From Verrucomicrobiota bacterium (GTDB lineage Bacteria; Verrucomicrobiota; Verrucomicrobiia; Limisphaerales; JACQFS01): 64,000 nucleotides of DNA. The translations under genes were made by a program, and so were the position numbers. The stretch is taken from positions 1 to 64,000 of the forward strand of contig JACQFS010000015.1 of the NCBI GenBank assembly GCA_016199935.1, written 5' to 3'. Below, piece after piece: positions 4,385 to 63,760 of the stretch. Position 1 is the first letter of the stretch; the number at the start of each line of letters is the position of its first letter. The notes under the pieces were generated by a model, which searched no databases, was not told the DNA's origin, and saw nothing but the letters and a program-made list of their open reading frames with translations.

Positions 4385-4410
4385 TGGAAAATCCTGAGGG
4401 GAATCCCGAA

Positions 4411-4480
4411 GAAGGTCAAACGAATGGGGGCAGGCGAATGAAGAAAAAGAAATTCGTCTGACCCCATTCGTTTGACCTTC
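4411..4480. repeat. 70-bp inverted repeat, family A copy 1
   Basis: The left arm begins GAAGGTCAAACGAATGGGG and the right arm ends CCCCATTCGTTTGACCTTC, with a spacer rich in A. A second copy lies at 16794-16866, with the same core TCAGGCGAATG / CATTCGCCTGA. It sits between two divergent genes, just 5' of the NHL gene. The size and symmetry suggest a REP- or MITE-type element. No transposase is nearby. Confidence 0.8.
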
Positions 4481-4506
4481 TCCCTCCATGCCGTTAGAAG
4501 CCGCGC

Positions 4507-10140: not shown

Positions 10141-10164
10141 GTAGCAGCCGACGTAAGGAGGCTC
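10141..10164. repeat. GCCGACGTAAGGAGGCTC motif, family C copy 1
   Basis: GTAGCAGCCGACGTAAGGAG followed by GCTCTGA begins four bases after the carboxypeptidase stop. Near-identical copies occur after the mntA stop (10957) and after the PQQ gene stop (16714), and an inverted copy lies at 11004-11027. Confidence 0.8.
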
Positions 10165-10223
10165 TGACACCTTCCCTCAAAAATATCATCGGCAATTCGA
10201 GCCAGCCCCCGTAGCATTTCCCC

Positions 10224-10955: not shown

Positions 10956-11028
10956 TGGTGGCAGCCGACGTAAGGAGGCTCCAACTTTTCCGCTGATGAA
11001 TTTGAGCCTCCTCACGTCGGCTGTTACC
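10956..11028. repeat. family C inverted repeat, copies 2 and 3 face to face
   Basis: The left arm GGTGGCAGCCGACGTAAGGA (10957 on) and right arm CCTCACGTCGGCTGTTACC (11009-11027) are near-perfect complements, with the full arms about 27 bp and a short AT-rich spacer. The right arm forms the first codons of the cyanophycinase-like frame that starts at 10996. Confidence 0.85.
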
Positions 11029-15423: not shown

Positions 15424-16713
15424 ATGAAAACCAAAACCGTTTCGTTCCTCCTCTGTTTCCTCGTCGCCTCGACCGCCCTCGCCGCCAACTGGCCCGCGTG
15501 GCGCGGCCCGCTCGGCACCGGCCTCACCGAGGAGAAAAACCTCCCGACCAAGTGGAGCACCGCCGAGAACGTCAAGTGGCGCATCGCACTGCCCGAGGCC
15601 GGCAACTCCACGCCCGTCGTCTGGGGCGACCGCGTGTTCGTCACGCAGGCCGTCGGCGAAAAGCGCACGCTCATGTGCTTCAACCGCGCCGATGGCAAAC
15701 TGCTCTGGCAGGTCGGCGTGACCACGAAGGAAAAGGAACCGACGCACGCCACGAATCCCTATTGCTCCGCGTCGCCGGTGACCGATGGCGAGCGCGTCAT
15801 CGTCTCCTTCGCGTCGGACGGTTTGTTCTGCTACGACTTCACCGGCAAGGAACTCTGGCACCGCACCGATCTCGGCCGGCAGATTCACATCTGGGGCAAC
15901 GCCGCGTCGCCCGCCATCTACAGCAACCTCTGCTTCCTCAACTTCGGCCCCGGCGAGACGACCTACCTGCTCGCCGTGGACAAAAAGACAGGCAAGACCA
16001 TCTGGAAAAAGGACGAGGAGACCGGCTACGGCAAGGCACAGCCCGCCGCGGCGGATTCGGGTGAAAAGAAAAACCGCGGCAACCCGCAATACATCGGCTC
16101 ATGGACCACGCCCACGATCATGAAGGTTGAGGGCAAGGACCAGTTGCTCATGAGCTGGCCCGTGCGCCTTGCCGCTTACGACCCTGCGACCGGCAAGGAA
16201 CTCTGGACCTGCTCCGGCCTCAACCCGCTCGTTTACACCTCGCCGATTTATGAGAACGATGTCGTCGCCGCGCTTGGCGGCTTCAGCGGCACGGCCATTG
16301 GCGTGCGCGCCGGCGGCAGCGGCGACGTGACCGCCTCGCGCCGCGTGTGGCATCACCCGCGCTCGCCGCAGCGCATCGGTTCCGGCGTCGTGAAGGACGG
16401 AAAAATTTACATCCACAACGATCCCGGCACCGCGATGTGTCTCGATTTGAAAACTGGCGAGCAGGTCTGGAGCGAACGTCTCCAAGGCGCGGGCAAGACC
16501 GGCCAGAACTGGAGCAGCGTGATGTTGTCCGAGGACAAGTGCTACACCATCACGCAGGGCGGCGACTGCTTCGTGTTCCGCGCGGCTCCGAAGTTTGAAT
16601 TGATCTCCGTGAACTCGCTCGGCGAACGCAGCAACTCCTCCATCGTCCCCAGCAACGGTGAACTCTTCATCCGCACCCACGCTGCCCTCTACTGCATCGC
16701 CTCCAAGAAGTAG
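15424..16713 (+). CDS. secreted PQQ-like beta-propeller protein
   Basis: 429 residues with signal peptide MKTKTVSFLLCFLVASTALA. The mature protein starts NWPAWRGPLGTG, the standard opening of the PQQ_2-like 'outer membrane protein assembly BamB-like' propellers of PVC bacteria. Repeats of the type L.AYDPATGKELW are visible (for example LAVDKKTGKTIWKK, AMCLDLKTGEQVWSE). No PQQ-ligand or heme motif is present, so it may be a binding or scaffold propeller rather than a dehydrogenase. It is a paralogue of the gene at 53511-54785. Confidence 0.88.
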   Translation: MKTKTVSFLLCFLVASTALAANWPAWRGPLGTGLTEEKNLPTKWSTAENVKWRIALPEAGNSTPVVWGDRVFVTQAVGEKRTLMCFNRADGKLLWQVGVTTKEKEPTHATNPYCSASPVTDGERVIVSFASDGLFCYDFTGKELWHRTDLGRQIHIWGNAASPAIYSNLCFLNFGPGETTYLLAVDKKTGKTIWKKDEETGYGKAQPAAADSGEKKNRGNPQYIGSWTTPTIMKVEGKDQLLMSWPVRLAAYDPATGKELWTCSGLNPLVYTSPIYENDVVAALGGFSGTAIGVRAGGSGDVTASRRVWHHPRSPQRIGSGVVKDGKIYIHNDPGTAMCLDLKTGEQVWSERLQGAGKTGQNWSSVMLSEDKCYTITQGGDCFVFRAAPKFELISVNSLGERSNSSIVPSNGELFIRTHAALYCIASKK

Positions 16714-16734
16714 GTGCCGACGTAAGGAGGCTCT
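16714..16734. repeat. GCCGACGTAAGGAGGCTC motif, family C copy 4
   Basis: GTGCCGACGTAAGGAGGCTC begins immediately after the PQQ gene stop codon, in the same position relative to the stop as the copies at 10141 and 10957. Confidence 0.75.
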
Positions 16735-16793
16735 GATCAAATGCGGAATGAGGAATGTGGTCTGCGGGTTTGAAAATGAATTCGACCCGAGTT

Positions 16794-16866
16794 GGTCAAG
16801 CGAATGGGGTCAGGCGAATGAAAACGAGTTTCTTTTCCCTCATTCGCCTGACCCCATTCGTTTGAC
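16794..16866. repeat. 73-bp inverted repeat, family A copy 2
   Basis: The left arm opens GGTCAAGCGAATGGGGTCAG and the right arm ends ACCCCATTCGTTTGACC. The arms of 27 bp pair with one mismatch around a 19-base spacer. It is homologous to the element at 4411-4480. It lies between two convergent genes, where it could also terminate transcription. Confidence 0.85.
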
Positions 16867-16875
16867 CCTCTCGAT

Positions 16876-17773: not shown

Positions 17774-20700
17774 TCACGGCTTCGCGTCCTCGACTGTCAC
17801 GCGCACCTCGGCGCCGTTGCAGCGGATCTCGGGCACATACATCGCGTGGCCCAGAACCGGCAGCGCGTGGAACTGGCCGGGCACTTCGGCGCGGAAGTCG
17901 TAGCGGATTTCCCAGACGCCTTCGGGGAGCTTGTCCACAAACATCGCCACCTTGCGGTCGCGGAGTTCCTGATAGACCCAGCGCGAGCGGCCGGTGAAAT
18001 CCGTGTCCGACATCAGCACCGGGCGCGGCAGGCCGACGGGCGCGATGCCACCGATGCGGCGTGCGGCTCCGCCACCCTTCTTCTTCGAGGGCGCGACCTG
18101 CGGTGCGGCGGCGGCGGGTTTGGCCGCGCTGAATTTTCTTTCGACCGCGCCGCTCTTCATTTCACGCGCGTAGAGCGATTCGCCGCTGCGGATTTCCACG
18201 GCCTCGAAGCCGGCGGGCTTGAGGTCCTCGAAGAGCAGATACTCGTAGTTGTTCTTCGTCTCGACGGTCAGCACGGTCTCGATGCGCTCGCCGCTTTTCA
18301 CGCTCTCGCCGTCCTTGAGCGGCACCTTGTCATAGACGAAGCCCTTCAAGAGCGTCGGGCGGCCGACGAGTTTGTAATACTCGCGCTTCACGAAGATTTC
18401 GTTGCCGGCGGGCGTGATGGGTTCTTCGAGGCTGAAAAACTTCGCCTCGGCCGCAAAGTAAACCGCGCCGTCGCCGTTGCGCTTGATGCGGATTTCGTTC
18501 GCGCCGTCCTTGATGAGCTTCGGGTCCACGGTGAAACGGCTCGGAGCATTGAACACGTCCGCGCCGCTGACCTTGCGGTCGGCCACCTTCGAGCCGTTGA
18601 CGAACACGCTGAACTCCAACTCCGGCTTCAGCTCGCCGCTCACCTTGAGGTAATCGTTCATCGCGAGGACGACGATGGCGGTGTCGCGCGTGTTGCTCCA
18701 CTGCGCGCCGCGGCGGTTCTTGATGAGCCAGTTGGTGACCGGTTCGATGAGCGGGTTCTTCGGGTCAATCGTCAGCAGCGCGCGCAACGCAAACGCCGTC
18801 GCCTCCACGCCGCCGTCGGACCAGCGCCAATACACGCCGTCCTCGCCCCAATGCGCGGTGCCCATCACGCCCTTGTTCGCGGGCGCGGTGCCGCCGATGA
18901 GCACGCTCGCATCCGGTCGCTCGTCGCGCTTCACGCCGTTCTCCAGATTTTCGATGAGCGTCTTGGCTTTCGTCTTGTAGTCTGTCTCGTCAAAACTGAA
19001 ATAGTGGGCGCTTAAGGCCAGCAAGGCTCTAGTGTAAGCGTTCAGCCTTTCTCGATTAGCCCAGAGATTTTCAAATGCTTTCGCTTGGAATTGTGGAACG
19101 TGACGCTCCTGGCTGCGCACGCGCTCGCGAGACAGCGAAAGCGCGTGCAGCATCCACGCCTGCATGTCGGGATTCAATTCTTCCTCGACGAGCGTCTTGT
19201 CGAGGAAGCTCGCGCCTCGTTCAAGGACGTTGCCTTTGATTTCCACGCCGGTCTGCTTGGCAAGCGTGAGGCCCCACACGACGTAAGCGGTCATCCAACG
19301 GTCGCTGTCGCCGGGTTTCCACCAGCCCCAGCCGCCGTCGCCGTGCTGGAAATCGTAGAGGCGTTCGAGGCCGGCCTTCACCATTTCGTCGAGCTTGGCC
19401 AAATCCTTTTTCCCCTTGGGTTGAGTGGCTTTCACGTTCGCCGGCTCGATGCCGCCGAAGACGCGGCCCATCACGTCCTCGGGCGCGAGGCCGAGGTCGC
19501 GCAGCGTCTTTGCGGTGATGGCGGCGGGGAGGAAACGGCTCATCGTCTGCTCGGTGCAGCCGTAGGGGTAATCAATCAGGTAGGGCAACGCATCGAGCAT
19601 CGTGACGGCGAGGCTCGGCGTGACCTGCACGGTGAGCGTGGTGGACTCGGGCTTGCGCGCCTGCGGAATGTCGAGCTTCACGGTGATGTCGTTGCCGCGG
19701 ACCTTGCCGGCCTTGGTGATGAACTTCTCGATGCCGTGTTCGTGCGCGACGTAAGTCTTCTCCATCGCGTCGGAAAACTTCCCGCCGCGCCCGGTGACTT
19801 TGAGTTTCGCTTCGCCCGGAGATTTCACGATGGCCTTCCAATCCGCGCGCGCCTCGCTGTTCGCGGGGACTTTGAGTAGCGCAGGCTTCCAGCCTGCGGG
19901 TTTCGCGGCATCCTGCCGCGAGTCAACTGGCAGCAAGATGCTGCCAGAACCCGCAGGCAGGGATGCCTGCGCTACGTTGGTCGAGTCCAGCGTCACCTTC
20001 ACCTCCATCGCCTCGTCGGTGTTGTTGTTCACGACGGCGCTTAACACAACCTCATCCCCCACGACAAAAAAGCGCGGAGCCTGGAGGCGGACGATGAGCG
20101 GTTGCTTGGTGCGCGTGTTGGTGCTCGCGAGGCCGAACTGATTTCCGACGCTGACGGCGCGCGCGGTGGCCTTCCAGCCGGTGAGGGAGTCGGGATACTT
20201 CACCTTCACGATGGCCGTCCCTTTGGCGTCGGTCTTCAAGTCGGGCTGCCAGAGAATCGTGGAGCGGAAATCAGAGCGCACCACGACGGCGGGTTCTTGG
20301 CTGGCCCGTCCTTCGCCGAGTTGCATCTCGGATCTTTTGTCGGACATGCCCTTCATCAACTGCCGGTTCGCTCCCATTGGCGCGCTCGCTGGCATCGCTC
20401 CGCGCGCGAGCATTCCACCCACGGCACTCATAGACTTCGCCGCCATTTCCATGGGTGCGGCCGCATCCATTGCGAGCACATTGGCATTGGCATAGCCGAA
20501 TTGGTCCTCCAGTCGCCCGTCATAAAGCCCATCACGGTCGAGTGACTCCAATTCCTCGCGTCCGCCCAACCCCGCCTGCCTCCGGCGCTTCCCGCTTTCA
20601 TCCGCCTCGCGCTCGTCGAACAACTCGTCCTTCTCGCCCTTCAACAGCTTCGCGTAGCTCTTCCAGTTCATCGTCGCCTGCATCTGGATCTGGTGCGGGC

Positions 20701-23700
20701 GCTTGGTGCCGTAGAAAAATTGCCGCGGGTCGCCGGCGTAATCGCTCTGGATGTAGAAGACCGATTCGTCCACAAGTCCGAACGCCACCTCAGCGGCGAC
20801 CGGTTTGCCGTCGTGGTCGCGCGTGGTGATGGTGAGCGTGCCTTCGTCGCGCGGCTGGTATTGGGCGCGATCAGGCTTCACGTCCACGGTGAGGAAATTT
20901 TTCGTCGGCGGCACCACGACCTGTTTCGTGTCGGTGAAAATCTGCCGGTCGGTCACGAGCGCCGCGCCGAGGAAAATGTTCGGCACGTGCTGCTCCGCGA
21001 TGTCTAGCTCGACGAGTTTCACCGTGCCGGTCACGTGGACAAGCTGGTAACTCATCAACTCCTCGGCCTCGGTGGTGAAGAGCACGTAACGGTCGGCGGT
21101 CGGTGTGACGAGCATCACCGGCGCGCGCTGGCCGACGCGGAACGTGTCCTGGTCCGCGATGATTTCCACGCCGCCGTGGCGGTAGCCGATTTCCGTCGTG
21201 GCGTTGTTCGCGACCCACACGGTCGTCTCGGCGCGGATGGGCTGCGGCGGGCGCTTGGGCGCAACGTCTTCGCTCAACCACGTCACGCGATAGTAGCCCT
21301 CGCGCTCCGGCGTGAAGGTGAACTCGCCCTTGCCATCGGCGTCGGTCTTCACGGTGAGCGTCTTGATTTCGTCGCGCTCGTAACCGCGGAATTTCAGCCG
21401 CCAATCCTTCTGGTCGGGACGCTCGGGCGCGGGCGGCCAGATTTTTTGCTGCGCCTGGAGCTTCTTCAGTTCGTCGCCCTTCACCTCGCGGCCGTCGGGC
21501 GCAATCCAGATTTCCCACCAATACTCGCGCAGCAATTTCACGATGCCCTCGGCGACGACGGGCTGCTCATTCGCGTCCTTGGCGGTAAACTCGATGCGCA
21601 CCTTGTCCTGCGGGCGGTAGAGATTGTGGTCGGGCCGCGCGAAAACGTAGTAGCGCTGCTGCGTGACGCGCACGGCGCCGTTGCCGGTGATTTCGCGCCG
21701 GCTCGAATCGGTCACGCGCGCCTCGACGCGATACTCGAAGTCCTGCCCGCCGCCCTTGGGCGTGTCGAAGGTGAGCGCGGCCTTGCCGGTCGCGTCGGTC
21801 TTGAGCGTCTCGCGCTTGATGATTTGCCCGCCGGCACCGCCGGGCCAGCGGCCGAAGCGGTTCACGGCTAGGTCCATGTCGTCGTAAAACCACGGGAAGT
21901 CGCGCGGTTGCGGGAAGTGCATCCAGAAGGGGTTTTGATAGACGAGCACCTCGACGCTCGCGTTGGCGACGGCGCCGCCGAAATAATAATCCGCCTGCAC
22001 GCTCACCTCGACGGTTTCGCCGAGGCGGAAGGCTTTTTTGCGCGGCTTGCCTTCGGCGGTCTTCTCCTCCGGCGTCTGCACGGTGACTTTGAATTCCGGC
22101 AGCTTGTATTCCTCCAACCGGAACAACTGCGCGTTGCCGATGTGCTGCTTGCGGCCCTCGTTCCAGAACTGGATTTGATATTCGCCGAGCGGCATCGCCT
22201 CGGTGAGTTCGAGCGCGCCCCACGCGCTGCCGAACGGGTTGAGCTTCGCCTTGTCGGCCTTCACCTTCGCGCCGCGCGGGTCGGTGATTTCAAACTCGAT
22301 GGTCGCGTCGCTCGGCGTGGAATAGACCGAGCCGTTGTAGCGGCGCGCGATGAACTTCCACTGCACCGTCTCCTTCGGGCGATACGCAGGCCGGTCGGTG
22401 AAGGCGTAAATCTTCCAACGCTCGAACTCGGCGCGGCCCCAGTAACTGTTGCCCAAGCTGAACGCCTGCCGGTCGGCAGTGATGGCGGCGGCGAAGAGTT
22501 CCAGATTGTTGTTCGCCGGGCGCGACAACTCGAACACCGCGATGCCGTCGGCGTTGACCTCCTTCTCCGACTCGCGCGACTGCCAGCGTTTGCCGTCGTG
22601 CCAGCGTTCCCAGAGCTTCACCTTGCCCTCGCGCTGCGGCGAGGAGTTGAGCGCGTTGCAGAAATAGATGAGCGCCTGCTTGCCGGAAGTTTTCAGCACG
22701 AGCGCCGAGTCGGTCACGAGCACAATGTCGCGCGCCGACTTGCCGCCACCGCGCGCTTCGAGGATGTAGGCGCCGGGCTTGAGTTTTTGTTCGAGGCGCA
22801 GCGACGCATTGCCGGGCTGGTAATCCTTCTTGTCCTTCGTGTCGTGCGACCACTCCTTCAACTTCTCGCGGCCCGCGAGGTCAATGGAGGTGAGCCAGTC
22901 GGTGCGGCGCTTCTCGTCAATGTTCGCGAGGCTCACGTCCTTCGCGAGGGCCACCGGGTAGAGCGCGAGTTCGATGCGACCGACGTTGCGCCAGTTGAGG
23001 TGATATTGAACTTCCGAGTCCGGCAGAAAAAAATGTGAGACGCTCACGCCGACCTGTTCGTCCGTGATGTTTTTGATTTGCTGCTGCGCCTGCTCGAAGT
23101 AGCGCGTCTCGCCCTTCTTGAACTCCGTAACGAGGCGGCGGAAGAGTTCGAGCGCCTTCACGAAATCCGGCTCGTTGCGCCAGCCGCCGTCCTTGAGCGG
23201 CACGACGCGGCCCTGATTCATCATCCACTCGGCGTATTGGTAGAGCGCGTCGTCATACCATTCGGTCTTCTGTCCAAGCTTCACCGCCGCCTCGAACTCC
23301 TCCGGCACACGCGCGCGCTGCTCCCAATCGCCGCCCTGCTGCTGGATGGTCCGCGCGAGCAGGTAGTGCGCGTGCGCCTGGTCGTTTTCGGTCTGCGCAA
23401 TCTTCAGCGCGTTCTCGGCGATGGGGAGCGGGAGGATGTTGCCGTAATTTCCGAAGTAGTAATTGCGCGCTTGGATGCCCGGCGGCCGCTCGATGCGCCA
23501 CACGATGCCGAGGTAACGCCCGCGCGCCGTCTCGAGGTCGCGCGCACCCGCCCACCACTCGAGCGCGTTCTGATAAAACGGCCAAGCCCCACCCCAGTTC
23601 TGCTGATTGCGCCGCGTCCACCAAAAATCCCCGAGCGACTCCTGCACCTCGACCCACACGCGGTCCTTGTCTTCCGTGCGCTGAATGTCGCGCACCATTT

Positions 23701-23989
23701 TGTCCAGCGCATCGCGAGCCGCATCGAGTTTCGTCGTGTCCGCCCGCTGCGTGCTGGCTTCCGAGCGCCACGCCGTATCCAAGAGGCGGAACTGCACCCA
23801 GCGCTGCTCGGCGGGCGGGAGATTGGTGACGACGATTTTCGCATAAGCTTCACGCGCCTTCGCAAACGACTTCTCGGCAAAGAGCCGCTCGCCTTCGGCC
23901 TTGAGCGAGTCGTAATCGCTGAGTTGTGCGTGAAGCGAGGCGGTGAAGAAAGTGGCCGCAAGCGCGGCGAGCAGGAGACGAAGTTTCAT
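17774..23989 (-). CDS. bacterial alpha-2-macroglobulin family protein with thioester
   Basis: 2071 residues. ATG 23989 gives signal peptide MKLRLLLAALAATFFTASLH, with no lipobox Cys, so it is probably soluble in the periplasm (a TTG two codons upstream is also possible). Residues 20-300 are helical and rich in Trp and Gln. MG-type beta domains follow (AYRPKETVQWKF, VFARPDHNLYRPQDKVRIEF), then the central A2M domain (STILWQPDLKTDAKGTA). The thioester motif GCTEQ has its Cys at 1478, inside LIDYPYGCTEQTMSRF, followed by alpha-toroid repeats (GGWGWWKPGDSD) and a receptor-binding-like C-terminus. The family traps proteases. It is longer than E. coli YfhM (about 1650), and no pbpC neighbour is present. 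A palindromic repeat is inserted in frame at residues about 1338-1372. Confidence 0.93.
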   Translation of the reverse strand: MKLRLLLAALAATFFTASLHAQLSDYDSLKAEGERLFAEKSFAKAREAYAKIVVTNLPPAEQRWVQFRLLDTAWRSEASTQRADTTKLDAARDALDKMVRDIQRTEDKDRVWVEVQESLGDFWWTRRNQQNWGGAWPFYQNALEWWAGARDLETARGRYLGIVWRIERPPGIQARNYYFGNYGNILPLPIAENALKIAQTENDQAHAHYLLARTIQQQGGDWEQRARVPEEFEAAVKLGQKTEWYDDALYQYAEWMMNQGRVVPLKDGGWRNEPDFVKALELFRRLVTEFKKGETRYFEQAQQQIKNITDEQVGVSVSHFFLPDSEVQYHLNWRNVGRIELALYPVALAKDVSLANIDEKRRTDWLTSIDLAGREKLKEWSHDTKDKKDYQPGNASLRLEQKLKPGAYILEARGGGKSARDIVLVTDSALVLKTSGKQALIYFCNALNSSPQREGKVKLWERWHDGKRWQSRESEKEVNADGIAVFELSRPANNNLELFAAAITADRQAFSLGNSYWGRAEFERWKIYAFTDRPAYRPKETVQWKFIARRYNGSVYSTPSDATIEFEITDPRGAKVKADKAKLNPFGSAWGALELTEAMPLGEYQIQFWNEGRKQHIGNAQLFRLEEYKLPEFKVTVQTPEEKTAEGKPRKKAFRLGETVEVSVQADYYFGGAVANASVEVLVYQNPFWMHFPQPRDFPWFYDDMDLAVNRFGRWPGGAGGQIIKRETLKTDATGKAALTFDTPKGGGQDFEYRVEARVTDSSRREITGNGAVRVTQQRYYVFARPDHNLYRPQDKVRIEFTAKDANEQPVVAEGIVKLLREYWWEIWIAPDGREVKGDELKKLQAQQKIWPPAPERPDQKDWRLKFRGYERDEIKTLTVKTDADGKGEFTFTPEREGYYRVTWLSEDVAPKRPPQPIRAETTVWVANNATTEIGYRHGGVEIIADQDTFRVGQRAPVMLVTPTADRYVLFTTEAEELMSYQLVHVTGTVKLVELDIAEQHVPNIFLGAALVTDRQIFTDTKQVVVPPTKNFLTVDVKPDRAQYQPRDEGTLTITTRDHDGKPVAAEVAFGLVDESVFYIQSDYAGDPRQFFYGTKRPHQIQMQATMNWKSYAKLLKGEKDELFDEREADESGKRRRQAGLGGREELESLDRDGLYDGRLEDQFGYANANVLAMDAAAPMEMAAKSMSAVGGMLARGAMPASAPMGANRQLMKGMSDKRSEMQLGEGRASQEPAVVVRSDFRSTILWQPDLKTDAKGTAIVKVKYPDSLTGWKATARAVSVGNQFGLASTNTRTKQPLIVRLQAPRFFVVGDEVVLSAVVNNNTDEAMEVKVTLDSTNVAQASLPAGSGSILLPVDSRQDAAKPAGWKPALLKVPANSEARADWKAIVKSPGEAKLKVTGRGGKFSDAMEKTYVAHEHGIEKFITKAGKVRGNDITVKLDIPQARKPESTTLTVQVTPSLAVTMLDALPYLIDYPYGCTEQTMSRFLPAAITAKTLRDLGLAPEDVMGRVFGGIEPANVKATQPKGKKDLAKLDEMVKAGLERLYDFQHGDGGWGWWKPGDSDRWMTAYVVWGLTLAKQTGVEIKGNVLERGASFLDKTLVEEELNPDMQAWMLHALSLSRERVRSQERHVPQFQAKAFENLWANRERLNAYTRALLALSAHYFSFDETDYKTKAKTLIENLENGVKRDERPDASVLIGGTAPANKGVMGTAHWGEDGVYWRWSDGGVEATAFALRALLTIDPKNPLIEPVTNWLIKNRRGAQWSNTRDTAIVVLAMNDYLKVSGELKPELEFSVFVNGSKVADRKVSGADVFNAPSRFTVDPKLIKDGANEIRIKRNGDGAVYFAAEAKFFSLEEPITPAGNEIFVKREYYKLVGRPTLLKGFVYDKVPLKDGESVKSGERIETVLTVETKNNYEYLLFEDLKPAGFEAVEIRSGESLYAREMKSGAVERKFSAAKPAAAAPQVAPSKKKGGGAARRIGGIAPVGLPRPVLMSDTDFTGRSRWVYQELRDRKVAMFVDKLPEGVWEIRYDFRAEVPGQFHALPVLGHAMYVPEIRCNGAEVRVTVEDAKP
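19876..19976. repeat. palindromic repeat inside the alpha-2-macroglobulin gene, family D copy 1
   Basis: Arms start GTAGCGCAGGCTTCCAGCCT on the left and end GGGATGCCTGCGCTACG on the right, about 28 bp each with a second small palindrome between (GCAGCAAGATGCTGC). The element is translated in frame as residues reading AQASLPAGSGSILL and PAGWKPALL. An intergenic relative lies at 63644-63760. Confidence 0.85.
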
Positions 23990-24132
23990 AAGCAATGTCG
24001 CCCAGTTGGACGGGACGGCCGGAAGATTACTCCCGTGAACTGCGGCGTGTCACGACAGGAGCGTGACCGGCCCGCGCGCTGACCGGCGTCGAAGGGCTGG
24101 CAATCCATTGCTCGCTCGCTAGACTCGGGCGC

Positions 24133-29323: not shown

Positions 29324-29944
29324 ATGCAACCCTGGCTCGAATATCTCGCCGTCGCCGTGTGCGCCATCTCGGGCGCGCTCGCGGCGGCGGGCAAGCGGCT
29401 CGATCTTTTCGGCGTCATCGTGCTCGCGGTCGTGACGGCGGTGGGCGGCGGGACGATTCGCGACCTGTGCCTCGGCGCGAAGCCGGTGTTCTGGATCGAG
29501 AACCCCAGCCTCATCGTCGTCGCCACGCTCACCGCGCTCGCCACGTTCGTCGTCGCGCGCTTCTGGACGATGCCGCAGCGCGCGTTGCTCGTGGCGGATG
29601 CGTTCGGCCTCGCGCTCTTCACCATCGCTGGCACGGAGAAATCGCTGCTGCTCCAAACCTCCGGTGTCATCGCCGTCATGCTCGGCGTGATCACGGGCGT
29701 CGCGGGCGGCGTTTTGCGCGACGTGTTGCGGCGCGAGGTGCCGCTCGTGTTCCAGCCGGAGATCTACCTTTATGCGACGGCGGCATTTTGCGGGGCCACT
29801 GCGTTCGTGACGCTCGACAAGTTTTTCCCGGACTCGCCCGCCAACCGGCTCATCGCGATGGCGCTCATACTCAGCCTGCGCCTCGCGGCGATGTGGTGGA
29901 AGCTACGGTTGCCCGTGTTCAAATCGCGCGACGGGCAGACATGA
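29324..29944 (+). CDS. TRIC-family cation channel (UPF0126/YadS-like)
   Basis: 206 residues. Two repeats of three helices each carry the glycine-rich hallmarks AVGGGTIRDL and GVAGGVLRDV. ISGALAAAGKR in the first helix is also diagnostic. In characterised members this is a trimeric, K+-permeable channel of the inner membrane. The ATG at 29324 is chosen for the classical N-terminus; a GTG at 29291 that overlaps the previous stop is an alternative and would add 11 residues. The stop overlaps the putA ATG (ATGA). Confidence 0.85.
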   Translation: MQPWLEYLAVAVCAISGALAAAGKRLDLFGVIVLAVVTAVGGGTIRDLCLGAKPVFWIENPSLIVVATLTALATFVVARFWTMPQRALLVADAFGLALFTIAGTEKSLLLQTSGVIAVMLGVITGVAGGVLRDVLRREVPLVFQPEIYLYATAAFCGATAFVTLDKFFPDSPANRLIAMALILSLRLAAMWWKLRLPVFKSRDGQT

Positions 29945-32900
29945 AACCGCTTTGCGACCAGAGCTTGATTGATCGCGCCGTCGAACTCGCACGCGTGCTC
30001 CAGCAGCGCGCGGGTGAATTGCAGACGCCCGCCGAGCGCCGCCAGCAGGCCGAACTGGACCGCATGCTCCAGACGCCCGCCGACAAGGCCACGCTCGTCC
30101 AGCTCACCGACCAGGCGTTTCGCTCGCGCCAGTCCGCGCGCGTGGCGGAGCAGTTCACGCACATCCTCGACGTGCAGGGCGTGCCGCGCTTTTTTAATCC
30201 GCTCGACCGCGCGCTCATGCGCGGCTTCCAAACTTTCGGCGCGTGGCTCCCCGGCGTCGCCGTGCCGCTCGTGAAGGAGCACATGCGCCACGAGACCGCG
30301 AATGTCGTCCTGCCCGCTGAGACCGAGCACCTCACGCGGCACTTGCGCGAACGCAGCGCCGAGGGCGTGCGGATGAACCTGAATTTTCTCGGCGAGGCGT
30401 TGCTCGGCGAGGAGGAGGCCGGGCATCGGCTGGAAAAATATCTCGCCGCGCTGCAACTCCCCGAGGTCGAGGTGCTGTCGGTGAAAATCTCGACGCTCTT
30501 TTCCCAAATCAATCCGCTCGCGCGCGAGCACACCTTGCGCGTGCTGTGCGAGCGGCTCGAACTGCTCTACCGCGCGGCGGACCGGGCGCGGTTTGCACTC
30601 AGTAGTGGCACAGGCGTCCCGCCTGTGAGTGGCAATCCCGACATTGCTCAGAAGGTTTCTGTGGACAGGCAGGATGCTTGTCCCACGATCGCGAAGTTTG
30701 TCTATCTCGACATGGAGGAATACCGCGATCTCTCGCTCACCGCCGAGGCGTTCATGCGCACGCTCGACCGGCGCGGCCTGGAGCAGGTGCGCGCCGGCAT
30801 CGCGTTGCAGGCTTACATTCCCGACAGCGCCCGCGTGCAGCGCACCATCAACGACTGGGCGCGCAAACGCGTCGCGCGCGGCGGTTCGCCCGTCACCATC
30901 CGAATCGTGAAAGGCGCGAACATGGAGATGGAACGCGTCGAGGCGTCGCTGCGCGACTGGCCGCAGGCGCCCTTCAAACGCAAGGTCGAGACCGACGCGA
31001 ACTACAAGCGGATGCTCGTCGAGGCGATGCGCCCGGAAAATCTGGCCGCCGTCCGCGTCGGCGTCGCGTCGCACAATCTTTTTGATCTCGCCTTCGGCCT
31101 CGTCCTCGCCGCCGAAGCGGATGCGGGCGACCACGTGCAATTCGAGATGCTCGAAGGCATGGCGAATCATCAACGCCGCGCGTTGCTGGAACATTCGCGC
31201 AACCTCTTGCTCTACGCGCCCGCGTGTCGCCGCGAGGAATTCCTCAACGCCATCGGCTACCTCATCCGCCGCCTCGACGAGAACACCGGCCCGGACAATT
31301 TCCTCCGCCACGCCTTCAGGCTCACGGTGGATTCGCCCGACTGGCACCAACTGGAGGGCGGTTTCCGCGAAGCTTTCACGGCGGAAACCTCCGACGCGCC
31401 GCGTCGCACGCAGGATCGGAGCACCGAGCGCTTTGACTCGCCCGTCGCCGAGATGTCGCTCAGCAACTTCCGCAACGAGCCGGATACCGATTGGTCGCTG
31501 CCGCAAAACAGCGCGTGGGCTGAGCAACTTGTCGCGCGTAAGGAACCCAGCACGCCCCGTATCCCGTGCGTTGTCGCGGGCGAGGAACTTCAGCCTGAGT
31601 CGCAGGCTGGCGTATGCACCGACCCGTCACGACCGGGTGTTGAACTTGCCCGCTACCGTCTGGGCACGGAAGCCGATGTGAACCGCACCGTCGCCTGCGC
31701 GAAGGCCGATCCCGGTGGCTGGCGTGCGATGAGCGTGGACACGCGCAGCGCCGTGCTCGGTCGCGTGGCGGAGGAACTCCGCCGGGCGCGCGGCGAGCTG
31801 ATGTGGACCGCGCTCGCCAATGGCGGGAAGATTCTTTCCGAGAGCGATCCCGAAGTGAGCGAGGCGGTGGACTTCGTGGAGTTCTACCGCGCCAGCGCTC
31901 GCACGTTCTTCGAATGGCCCGGCTTGCGTGCCGAGCCGCGCGGCGTGGTTGTGGTGGTTCCACCGTGGAATTTTCCCATCGCGATTCCGTGTGGCGGAAT
32001 CGCGGCGGCGCTCGCGGCGGGCAACACCGTCATCCTCAAGCCCGCGTCCGACACGGTGCTCATCGCATGGGAGCTGTGCCAGTGCTTCTGGCGTGCGGGC
32101 GTGCCGAGGACGGCGCTGCAATTCCTCCCGTGCCCCGGCGGCGGCGCGGGCGCGAAGCTTGTCGCGCATCCCGACGTGGACGCCGTGATCCTCACCGGCG
32201 GCACTGCGACGGCGCAGCGGATGCTCGACGCGAAACCTTCGCTGCATCTCTTCGCCGAGACGGGCGGCAAGAACGCCACCATCGTCACCGCGCTCAGCGA
32301 CCGCGAACTCGCCATCAAGCACGTCGTCCACAGCGCGTTCAGTCATAGCGGACAGAAATGTTCCGCCACGTCGCTGCTGCTGCTGGAGGCGGAGGTTTAC
32401 GACGACCCGCAATTCAAGCGGATGCTCTGCGACGCAGTGAAAAGTTTGAACGTCGGCAGCGCGTGGGATTTGCCCACGCGCGTCGGTCCGTGCATCCGTC
32501 CGCCTAGTGGTGATCTCGAAACCACGGAGTTCTTCGGCCCCGTGCTCGGCGTGATGCGCTTCGAGCGGCTGGAGGACGCTATCGAGATGGTCAACGCGAC
32601 CGGCTACGAACTCACGAGCGCGATCCACAGTCTCGACGACCGCGAGATTAAATTGTGGAAGTCACGCGTGCGCGCCGGAAACCTCTACATCAACCGCGGC
32701 ACCACGGGCGCGGTCGTGTTGCGCCAGCCGTTCGGCGGGATGGGGAAGAGCTGCTTCGGCGCGGGCATGAAAGCGGGCGGGCCGAATTACGTGGCGCAGT
32801 TCATGAGGTTCGCCGAATCGGATACGAACGCGGTGGAGAACTCCCCGCTTGCGAATCAGGATTTGGAATCGCTGCGTCTTGGGCTGCTTAATTCTTCAGA

Positions 32901-33480
32901 AGAGAAAATTAGAGTCTCGCCACCTCGACTCCTGCGGGCGTTGGCCAGTTACGGACGCTGGTGGCGCGAGGAATTCGGCGGCAAACACGATCACCTTCGA
33001 TTGCTGGGGCAGGACAATTTGCGGCGCTATCTGCCGTTTCGCTCGGTTCACCTGCGGGTCAACCGCGAGGATTCACTTTTTGAAATCATCGCCCGCGTGG
33101 CGGCCGCGCGAGCAACCGGCGCGCGGGTGATTGTCTCCCATTCGTCTGACACCGATTCGGCTGCCATCAAACTGCTCGAACAACTCACCGACTCGTGGGC
33201 CGCCGGCATCGAATTCGTCGAGGAGACAGATGCGCAACTCGCCGCCGCCATCCGCGAGGGACACGTGGAGCGCATCCGCACGGCGGGTCCGGGGCGTGTG
33301 AGCGAGGAAATGCTGCGCGCGGCGGCGGAGCATTTCGTCCACGTGGCGAGCGAGCCGGTGCTTGCCGAAGGACGCGTGGAGTTGCTCTGGTATCTGCGCG
33401 AACAAAGCGTCAGCTTTGATTATCACCGTTACGGAAACCTTGGCAGCCGCGCCGGTGAAGCGCGCCGCGAGCCGGAATGA
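29941..33480 (+). CDS. putA: bifunctional proline dehydrogenase / P5C dehydrogenase, with an ALDH deletion
   Basis: 1179 residues. Residues about 100-480 are the FAD-dependent PRODH barrel (FLGEALLGEEEAGHRLEKYL, RIVKGANMEMERV, VGVASHNLFDLA). Residues about 560-960 are an ALDH domain with PPWNFPIAIPCG, catalytic E773 (FAETGGKNA) and C807 (SGQKCSATS), and FFGPVLGVMRF. Together they would turn proline into glutamate. Two oddities: between RVGPCIRPPSGDLE and TTEFFGPV about 40-50 residues usual for ALDHs are missing (near residue 858), so P5CDH activity is doubtful. Also, a palindromic repeat is read in frame at residues about 222-249. There is no N-terminal DNA-binding domain. The C-terminal 200 residues are a further conserved tail. 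Confidence 0.9.
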   Translation: MKPLCDQSLIDRAVELARVLQQRAGELQTPAERRQQAELDRMLQTPADKATLVQLTDQAFRSRQSARVAEQFTHILDVQGVPRFFNPLDRALMRGFQTFGAWLPGVAVPLVKEHMRHETANVVLPAETEHLTRHLRERSAEGVRMNLNFLGEALLGEEEAGHRLEKYLAALQLPEVEVLSVKISTLFSQINPLAREHTLRVLCERLELLYRAADRARFALSSGTGVPPVSGNPDIAQKVSVDRQDACPTIAKFVYLDMEEYRDLSLTAEAFMRTLDRRGLEQVRAGIALQAYIPDSARVQRTINDWARKRVARGGSPVTIRIVKGANMEMERVEASLRDWPQAPFKRKVETDANYKRMLVEAMRPENLAAVRVGVASHNLFDLAFGLVLAAEADAGDHVQFEMLEGMANHQRRALLEHSRNLLLYAPACRREEFLNAIGYLIRRLDENTGPDNFLRHAFRLTVDSPDWHQLEGGFREAFTAETSDAPRRTQDRSTERFDSPVAEMSLSNFRNEPDTDWSLPQNSAWAEQLVARKEPSTPRIPCVVAGEELQPESQAGVCTDPSRPGVELARYRLGTEADVNRTVACAKADPGGWRAMSVDTRSAVLGRVAEELRRARGELMWTALANGGKILSESDPEVSEAVDFVEFYRASARTFFEWPGLRAEPRGVVVVVPPWNFPIAIPCGGIAAALAAGNTVILKPASDTVLIAWELCQCFWRAGVPRTALQFLPCPGGGAGAKLVAHPDVDAVILTGGTATAQRMLDAKPSLHLFAETGGKNATIVTALSDRELAIKHVVHSAFSHSGQKCSATSLLLLEAEVYDDPQFKRMLCDAVKSLNVGSAWDLPTRVGPCIRPPSGDLETTEFFGPVLGVMRFERLEDAIEMVNATGYELTSAIHSLDDREIKLWKSRVRAGNLYINRGTTGAVVLRQPFGGMGKSCFGAGMKAGGPNYVAQFMRFAESDTNAVENSPLANQDLESLRLGLLNSSEEKIRVSPPRLLRALASYGRWWREEFGGKHDHLRLLGQDNLRRYLPFRSVHLRVNREDSLFEIIARVAAARATGARVIVSHSSDTDSAAIKLLEQLTDSWAAGIEFVEETDAQLAAAIREGHVERIRTAGPGRVSEEMLRAAAEHFVHVASEPVLAEGRVELLWYLREQSVSFDYHRYGNLGSRAGEARREPE
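30605..30690. repeat. palindromic repeat inside putA
   Basis: Left arm GTGGCACAGGCGTCCCGCCT and right arm ending AGGATGCTTGTCCCACG pair imperfectly over about 24 bases, with GC hairpins within each arm. Translated in frame as SGTGVPPVSG and DRQDACPT. It interrupts a stretch of the PRODH domain between RFALS and KFVYLDMEEY. Confidence 0.75.
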
Positions 33481-39712: not shown

Positions 39713-41611
<1,899 letters not shown>

Positions 41612-41612
41612 G

Positions 41613-41710
41613 AACCACGAATGGACACGAATAAACACGAATGTAGATGCCGGGCCGCGGTCTCCGAGCGCTTGCTCCGCATTCGTGTCCATTCGTGTCC
41701 ATTCGTGGTT
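41613..41710. repeat. inverted repeat of 'cacgaat' units between the two ABC genes
   Basis: ACCACGAATGGACACGAATA (left) pairs with CATTCGTGTCCATTCGTGGT (right) through repeated ACGAAT and ATTCGT. The element fills the space between the first exporter's stop and the second exporter's ATG. Confidence 0.7.
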
Positions 41711-61833: not shown

Positions 61834-63588
<1,755 letters not shown>

Positions 63589-63643
63589 GGCGGTGGAGGT
63601 CGCGTTGAGGACGCCTGAAATCGGCGCGAACTTCAAGTGATTC

Positions 63644-63760
63644 ATGTAGGGCAGGCTTCCAGCCTGCCGGTTAGCCGGGCATCTTGCCCGGCGGTTTTGA
63701 AACGCGCGGACACGAGGCAGGATGCCTCGTGAACCGGCAGGCTGGAAGCCTGCCCTACAT
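63644..63760. repeat. 117-bp palindromic repeat between genes, family D copy 2
   Basis: Outer arms ATGTAGGGCAGGCTTCCAGC and its complement at 63731-63760 match perfectly over 29 bases. Nested units are CCGGGCATCTTGCCCGG and GAGGCAGGATGCCTC. It is the intergenic relative of the element in the alpha-2-macroglobulin gene (shared CAGGCTTCCAGCCTGC). Confidence 0.9.

Follow-up and report, generated by a model that had tools for sequence, protein, structure and literature searches.

Intragenic REP dimers have been described in Opitutus terrae, where GTAG/GTGG dimers encode 20-30 residues (Di Nocera et al. 2013, PMC3733652). Among the GTAG species these dimers are most numerous in O. terrae, the GTAG-20 family is mostly GTGG-headed, and RAYT genes are described near REPs (PMC3733652). 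In the REPINs of Bertels and Rainey (2011, PMC3116915), which are extragenic, an inverted REP pair forms a hairpin and REPs flank a RAYT gene; the movement of REPINs by RAYTs is a proposal in the cited literature. A GTAG-type head directs cutting by TnpA-REP, and a GTGG variant is still cut (PMC8266576). REPs can also lie in frame within the transposase gene itself, as in TnpA-REP subclass 2.4, and the main survey of these proteins discarded unexpectedly long TnpA as fusions or errors (PMC6006769). Among the Rickettsia palindromic elements (RPEs), RPE-4 and RPE-6 are members of the CGTC class, for which no link to transposase genes was found (PMC3733652).

We analysed a stretch of 64,000 nucleotides (the window) from a genome of the Verrucomicrobiota (contig JACQFS010000015.1), in which a preliminary description had placed a palindrome pair at 30605-30690 inside putA. 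The pair was confirmed in place, with a slightly shorter 3' end, at 30686. The features of this locus were:

29941-33480, plus strand: putA, the gene that carries the insert, coding for a bifunctional proline dehydrogenase / P5C dehydrogenase (Pfam Pro_dh at residues 133-457, and Aldedh; PDB 5ux5, E 3.8e-76)
30605-30686, plus strand: in-frame REPIN or REP dimer of 82 nt, with a GTGG head at one end and a CCAC head at the other
30605-30627, plus strand: left REP hairpin, GTGGCACAGGCGTCCCGCCTGTG, from folding, with identical letters beside the RAYT of locus L262
30628-30662, plus strand: spacer between the left and right REPs, from the sequence
30663-30686, minus strand: right REP hairpin, inverted, reading GTGGGACAAGCATCCTGCCTGTCC on the minus strand, with one stem base off the family pattern

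The insert consists of two inverted REP hairpins with GT[AG]G heads pointing outward and about 35 nt between them, which is the arrangement of a REP dimer, and a GTAG at 30602-30605 overlaps its left end. Both hairpins were predicted by DNA folding (z of -3.5 against shuffles, with 0 of 200 equally good), and an RNA of 88 nt (30602 to 30689) was able to pair end to end as one long hairpin of -40 kcal/mol. The putA frame across the insert reads RFAL-SSGTGVPPVSGNPDIAQKVSVDRQDACPT-IAKFVYLDMEEYRD, giving the stop-free peptide SGTGVPPV...VDRQDACPT at about residues 222-249, inside Pro_dh, so that the repeat peptides are indeed in frame within the PRODH domain, as first proposed.

This insert shares with the O. 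terrae dimers the palindromic form, the outward heads, the GTGG variant, the position within an open frame and the phylum; it differs in organism and gene, and GTAG-20 was compared through its description ('mostly GTGG'). Like the RPEs, it is in-frame palindromic DNA read as extra residues, but its GTGG heads and its different phylum place it outside the RPEs, by class description. It shares the inverted hairpin pair with the REPINs of PMC3116915, and in relatives REPs of its family likewise flank RAYT genes; the PutA REPIN differs in lying in coding sequence, at two loci, in a genome where no cognate RAYT was found. By itself, the PutA REPIN is of a kind already known, as intragenic REP dimers are on record.

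The segment was absent from all 85 aligned PutA homologues, which were drawn from genomes of the same order and from named genome contigs, the records of the latter being mainly of Verrucomicrobiota and Planctomycetota. The claim that it is an insertion thus stood, and conservation of the segment in unrelated PutA proteins, which would have spoken against it, was looked for in these homologues and seen in none. At this site most of them have TRPDGxxVP and some an even shorter loop, so the loop varies in length, which is the one point in favour of a native, ancestral PutA loop; with 0 of 85 homologues carrying the segment, which ruled out a conserved native loop, and with ends that are exactly two inverted REPs, we regard an ancestral origin as next to impossible. 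The insert interrupts the alignment of the window PutA with the solved PutA 5ux5, which has about 6 residues at that place. In an AlphaFold model built with 46 sequences, the insert had no structure (pLDDT 26-42) and its neighbours, a helix on one side and the strand with LDMEE on the other, were well modelled; the mean pLDDT of the model was 68, and for this reason we used it only to contrast the insert with its neighbours. In PRODH barrels the helix-to-strand loops sit on the face opposite the active site, and from the model the insert would thus sit away from it.

A useful insert, in which the putA mRNA hairpin or the new loop had been recruited for expression tuning or protein contacts, seems very improbable: the mRNA hairpin is predicted to be stable, but the segment is absent from all relatives, the loop is predicted to be unstructured, and its peptides are also found in proteins that are unrelated and have no role in common.

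Apart from the N-terminal start, the alignment showed exactly two differences of at least 5 residues specific to the window PutA. The first was a net gain of 24 residues at 228-251 (alignment scan). The second was a lack of 41 residues of the ALDH domain at 861 (window about 32521-32526), which were present in all the other rows covering the site in the 86-row alignment. Either these residues were lost in frame in this PutA alone, or the assembly is at fault here. Because of this loss putA may be a gene in decay, and the fact that it tolerates the insert does not have to imply function. It is accordingly conceivable, if unlikely, that the insert was tolerated merely through decay of putA, or that it is an artefact of metagenome assembly, in which case it would say little about tolerance; the genome also appears to be a fragmented draft of 260 contigs. 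This explanation is opposed by the putA frame, which is conserved and, apart from this, open over 1179 residues, by the many other genes and genomes in which the same REP family lies in frame, and by the palindromes themselves, whose matching spacing is atypical of assembly error.

The genome is the sole member of its family in the genome collection, and the comparison was therefore carried out at the level of the order. The 22-base pattern GTGGNACAGGCNTCCNGCCTGT, with one mismatch permitted, was found in 85 of 293 genomes of the same order, at up to 106 sites per genome, and the reversed control gave no match; these counts, together with the shuffles, ruled out a chance palindrome at the PutA site. 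A typical element of this ACAGGC family has the form TAGTGGGACAGGC...GCCTGTCC-spacer-GGACAGGC...GCCTGTCCCACTA and spans mainly 50-130 bp (about 60 loci). In a census of 61 elements, 28 were in frame in probable genes, as judged from a coding-like codon-position composition to either side of the element, which is in line with the intragenic dimers reported from O. terrae (PMC3733652); the census relied on this composition and on 10 hosts checked by HMM, its loci were a non-random sample, and most of the genomes were fragmented drafts, probably metagenome assemblies. The elements were entered in the frames VGQASxLS or SGTGxxPV, the third frame holding the TAG of the extended head. The 10 hosts, in most of which the insert lay at or close to a break in the NCBIfam match, were BioA (two cases), PurL, a PcrA/UvrD-type helicase, IleS, an EcoAI-type HsdR, xanthine dehydrogenase, a flavoprotein, a methyltransferase and a baseplate protein, and both BioA, from different families of the order, were broken near the TGFG motif. 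The span from GTGG to CCAC equalled 1 mod 3 in 15 of 20 intragenic REPINs and in 8 of 15 others, which is the expected direction, weakly so and among related copies. A literature search with the letters of the repeat gave unrelated matches only.

When the PutA insert peptides were sought elsewhere, they recurred in relatives, as SGTGVPPV...PDRQDACPT in BioA, SGTGILPV...LDRQDACPT in the flavoprotein and SGTGVSPV...LDRRDACPT in PurL, and in the genome itself the stem was seen besides PutA only in an ABC exporter, at 40825. The description of such repeats in two different proteins was borne out, since PutA, an A2M-like protein and the ABC exporter all have in-frame REP inserts; judging from the reading frames, the latter two are further inserts of this kind. 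Their positions, and that of another copy, were:

40820-40927, plus strand: second ACAGGC-family locus, a putative GTGG-headed REP array in frame in the ABC exporter gene (39713-41611)
19876-19975, minus strand: putative resident GTAG...GCAGGC element, in frame in the A2M-like gene (17774-23995, minus strand)
63646-63758, no strand assigned: another copy of the resident GTAG...GCAGGC element, directly upstream of the minus-strand frame 61834-63645

The array of the ABC exporter falls between the membrane part and the ATPase. The ACAGGC...GCCTGT stem of the PutA type thus has two loci in this genome, which falls short of the many copies expected of a REPIN. The two loci are just 10 kb apart in a genome of 5.0 Mb (30605-30686 and 40820-40927), which hints at a shared origin of the stretch, for example by horizontal transfer. 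The resident repeat of this genome is a distinct composite GTAG...GCAGGC element with 14 core copies, and its insert in the A2M-like gene reads NVAQASLPAG...DAAKPAGWKPALL. Other repeats were also seen in the window: a separate dispersed repeat, GCAGCCGACGTAAGGAGGCTC, at 10141-10167, 10958-11028 and 16710-16736, with some copies in inverted pairs; inverted repeats on GGTCAAACGAATGGGG / CCCCATTCGTTTGACC at 4410-4481 and 16788-16873, about 91-93% complementary; and, at 41613-41710, an intergenic inverted repeat of 31 nt made of CACGAATGGACACGAAT units.

No cognate RAYT or transposase for the ACAGGC REP was found in this genome, and none of its four transposases recovered by the Y1_Tnp search was flanked by the PutA-type stem. 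The suggestion of an active process rather than chance consequently stood in part: a dispersed family of mobile repeats exists in the order, but with the stem at two loci and no transposase flanked by it, present activity in this genome is unsupported. The genome does have a RAYT (L007, G000:C16), flanked by GTAGCGCAGA REPs, which is a free-standing REPtron of a different family; its frame of 607 aa was considered as a nested case and rejected, because the upstream part had no family match and the RAYT ends at its own stop.

In relatives, the ACAGGC-family REPs adjoin the RAYTs of L247, L254, L262, L266, L269, L273, L280 and L286, several of them on both flanks, and the RAYT of L262 is flanked by the exact left REP of the PutA insert. 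Linkage of the REPs to a RAYT gene was thus seen in these relatives (L262 and others), and no such RAYT was found in the genome of the window. IS200-like transposases, which had high Y1_Tnp scores, were set aside as movers of the repeat because no ACAGGC REP was close to them. The role reported for the GTAG head fits the mobilisation of this family by RAYTs, as does the cutting that is retained with GTGG. That the palindromes arose or spread without the help of a transposase, through recombination, slippage or gene conversion, appears improbable to us: the genome has no detected cognate RAYT, and RAYT-driven movement has not been fully reconstituted in the cited literature, but the RAYTs of relatives have the same REPs on their flanks, and RAYT units with REP boundaries are found at a number of sites and in more than one gene.

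The frames of these RAYTs continue without stops into host genes, namely DnaE (L247, L254, L286), PriA (L262), DinG/YoaA (L266, L269, L273) and a fucokinase-like protein (L280), and other nested RAYTs were found in PriA (L263, L264), ClpB (L258), AlaS (L255, L278) and a methyltransferase (L281). This differs from the arrangement described in PMC3733652, as here the RAYTs are in frame inside the host genes instead of near the REPs. In subclass 2.4 the insertion of REPs likewise keeps the frame, with the difference that there a REP lies in the transposase gene and here a transposase unit lies in other genes. The RAYT inside DnaE of L286 (289-3219, minus strand) appears to hold a REP-type peptide, RTGGTPVPL, in its own sequence, which resembles the in-frame REPs of that subclass. 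The nested RAYTs had intact HUH and Tyr motifs (MP[ND]HVH, YxxxNP), being of the HUH, single-Tyr class, and scored 52-86 bits against NF047646, mostly under its curated cut-off of 80 bits.

A survey of one genome per family in 58 families of the order, with the loci then fetched and scanned, gave 22 host-confirmed nested RAYTs in 13 genomes (13 of 58 families), with AlaS, ThrS, PriA, DinG, the fucokinase-like protein, DnaE and a methyltransferase as hosts. Many were a single long frame, bounded by stops and matching the host on either side of the RAYT, and a few were cut by contig ends. Further loci with nested RAYTs were:

L317, L318, L322, L324, L325, L328, L331, L332: RAYT in frame in AlaS, stop-free
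L321, L323: RAYT in frame in ThrS, stop-free
L336: RAYT in frame in PriA, stop-free
L329, L334: RAYT in frame in DinG, stop-free

The total for the order was 34, which leaves out L371 (arsenate reductase plus RAYT), L319 and L007, and five more were found elsewhere in the phylum (two in AlaS, and one each in LeuS, HsdR and MetH). In eight genomes (G021, G051, G025, G014, G038, G005, G032 and G027) the sole AlaS found carries a RAYT, and an uninterrupted AlaS is present in G049, G006, G001 and G023; the AlaS of G002 was rejected as a clean fusion, its N-terminal half being in another frame. An alignment of 16 AlaS showed two loop sites for the RAYT, after GSTLP and after TLDRGIxLF, with the remaining enzyme conserved, and both sites are occupied in G051. 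At the second site, the elements of G005 and G032 share one inverted pair at their ends, GTGGAACGGGC...GCCCGTTCCAC, with a span of 616 bp. Insertions other than RAYTs were seen at this same second loop in the AlaS of G050, G036 and G024 (L374, L375 and L376), suggesting a general hot spot for insertion.

In a tree of 88 RAYT domains, a well-supported clade of 20 contained nested members exclusively, the bootstrap being not fully settled, and most of the free-standing RAYTs fell in other clades. Since this all-nested clade mixes both AlaS sites, ThrS and PriA, nested RAYTs have likely moved between sites and genes, as far as the tree of their sequences tells.

Inteins with homing endonucleases are mobile in-frame coding DNA at recurrent sites in DNA-metabolism and other essential genes. 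Nested RAYTs would work in a similar way; they differ in their REP ends, in an insert that is presumably retained, and in that the nested proteins showed no intein splicing (HINT) family among their listed NCBIfam matches (E<=1e-3, for some of them the 25 families listed). No description of RAYTs lying in frame within essential genes turned up in open-access full text, and as far as found they appear to be undescribed; few subscription papers came within this coverage, so the absence of a prior description is weak evidence.

Taken together, the putA segment is very probably a REPIN of two inverted GTGG-headed REPs in a length-tolerant loop, retained because it fits the frame of putA and brings in no stop. 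Against this explanation stand the missing cognate RAYT, the small number of loci with the stem and the loss in the ALDH domain. Such a REPIN would be a miniature non-autonomous element, the gene-less version of a REP-bounded RAYT unit. The RAYT would move this unit, or a REPIN without the gene, as single-stranded DNA, cutting beside the heads; elements reaching a loop within an open frame would survive, harmful or out-of-frame ones would be lost by selection, and the added residues would contribute nothing to PutA. With more reserve, we lean towards a wider reading, in which a Verrucomicrobiota lineage of RAYTs lives as translated, in-frame, REP-bounded inserts in essential genes (AlaS, ThrS, PriA, DnaE, DinG, ClpB), has moved between sites and genes with the frame kept, and is the source of translatable REPINs like that of PutA. 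Nested RAYTs would then be translated within the host protein, and, speculatively, riding on DnaE, PriA or DinG could carry the transposase to single-stranded DNA; AlaS and ThrS as hosts do not fit this idea of delivery.

Landing in coding sequence is the usual cost of transposition. The present repeat family and its transposase seem to persist in essential proteins, by the use of stop-free frames, of loop sites and of a host gene impossible to lose. For annotation, the peptides GTGVPPV, VGQASxLS and RQDACPT are a warning, as they flag mobile DNA rather than protein function. If the reading of the RAYT lineage is true, these inserts would be a bacterial parallel to inteins, free of splicing, and the role of the RAYT would become open to direct test, since expression of the host gene would maintain that of the transposase; the host proteins would carry, and perhaps deliver, a transposase of single-stranded DNA.
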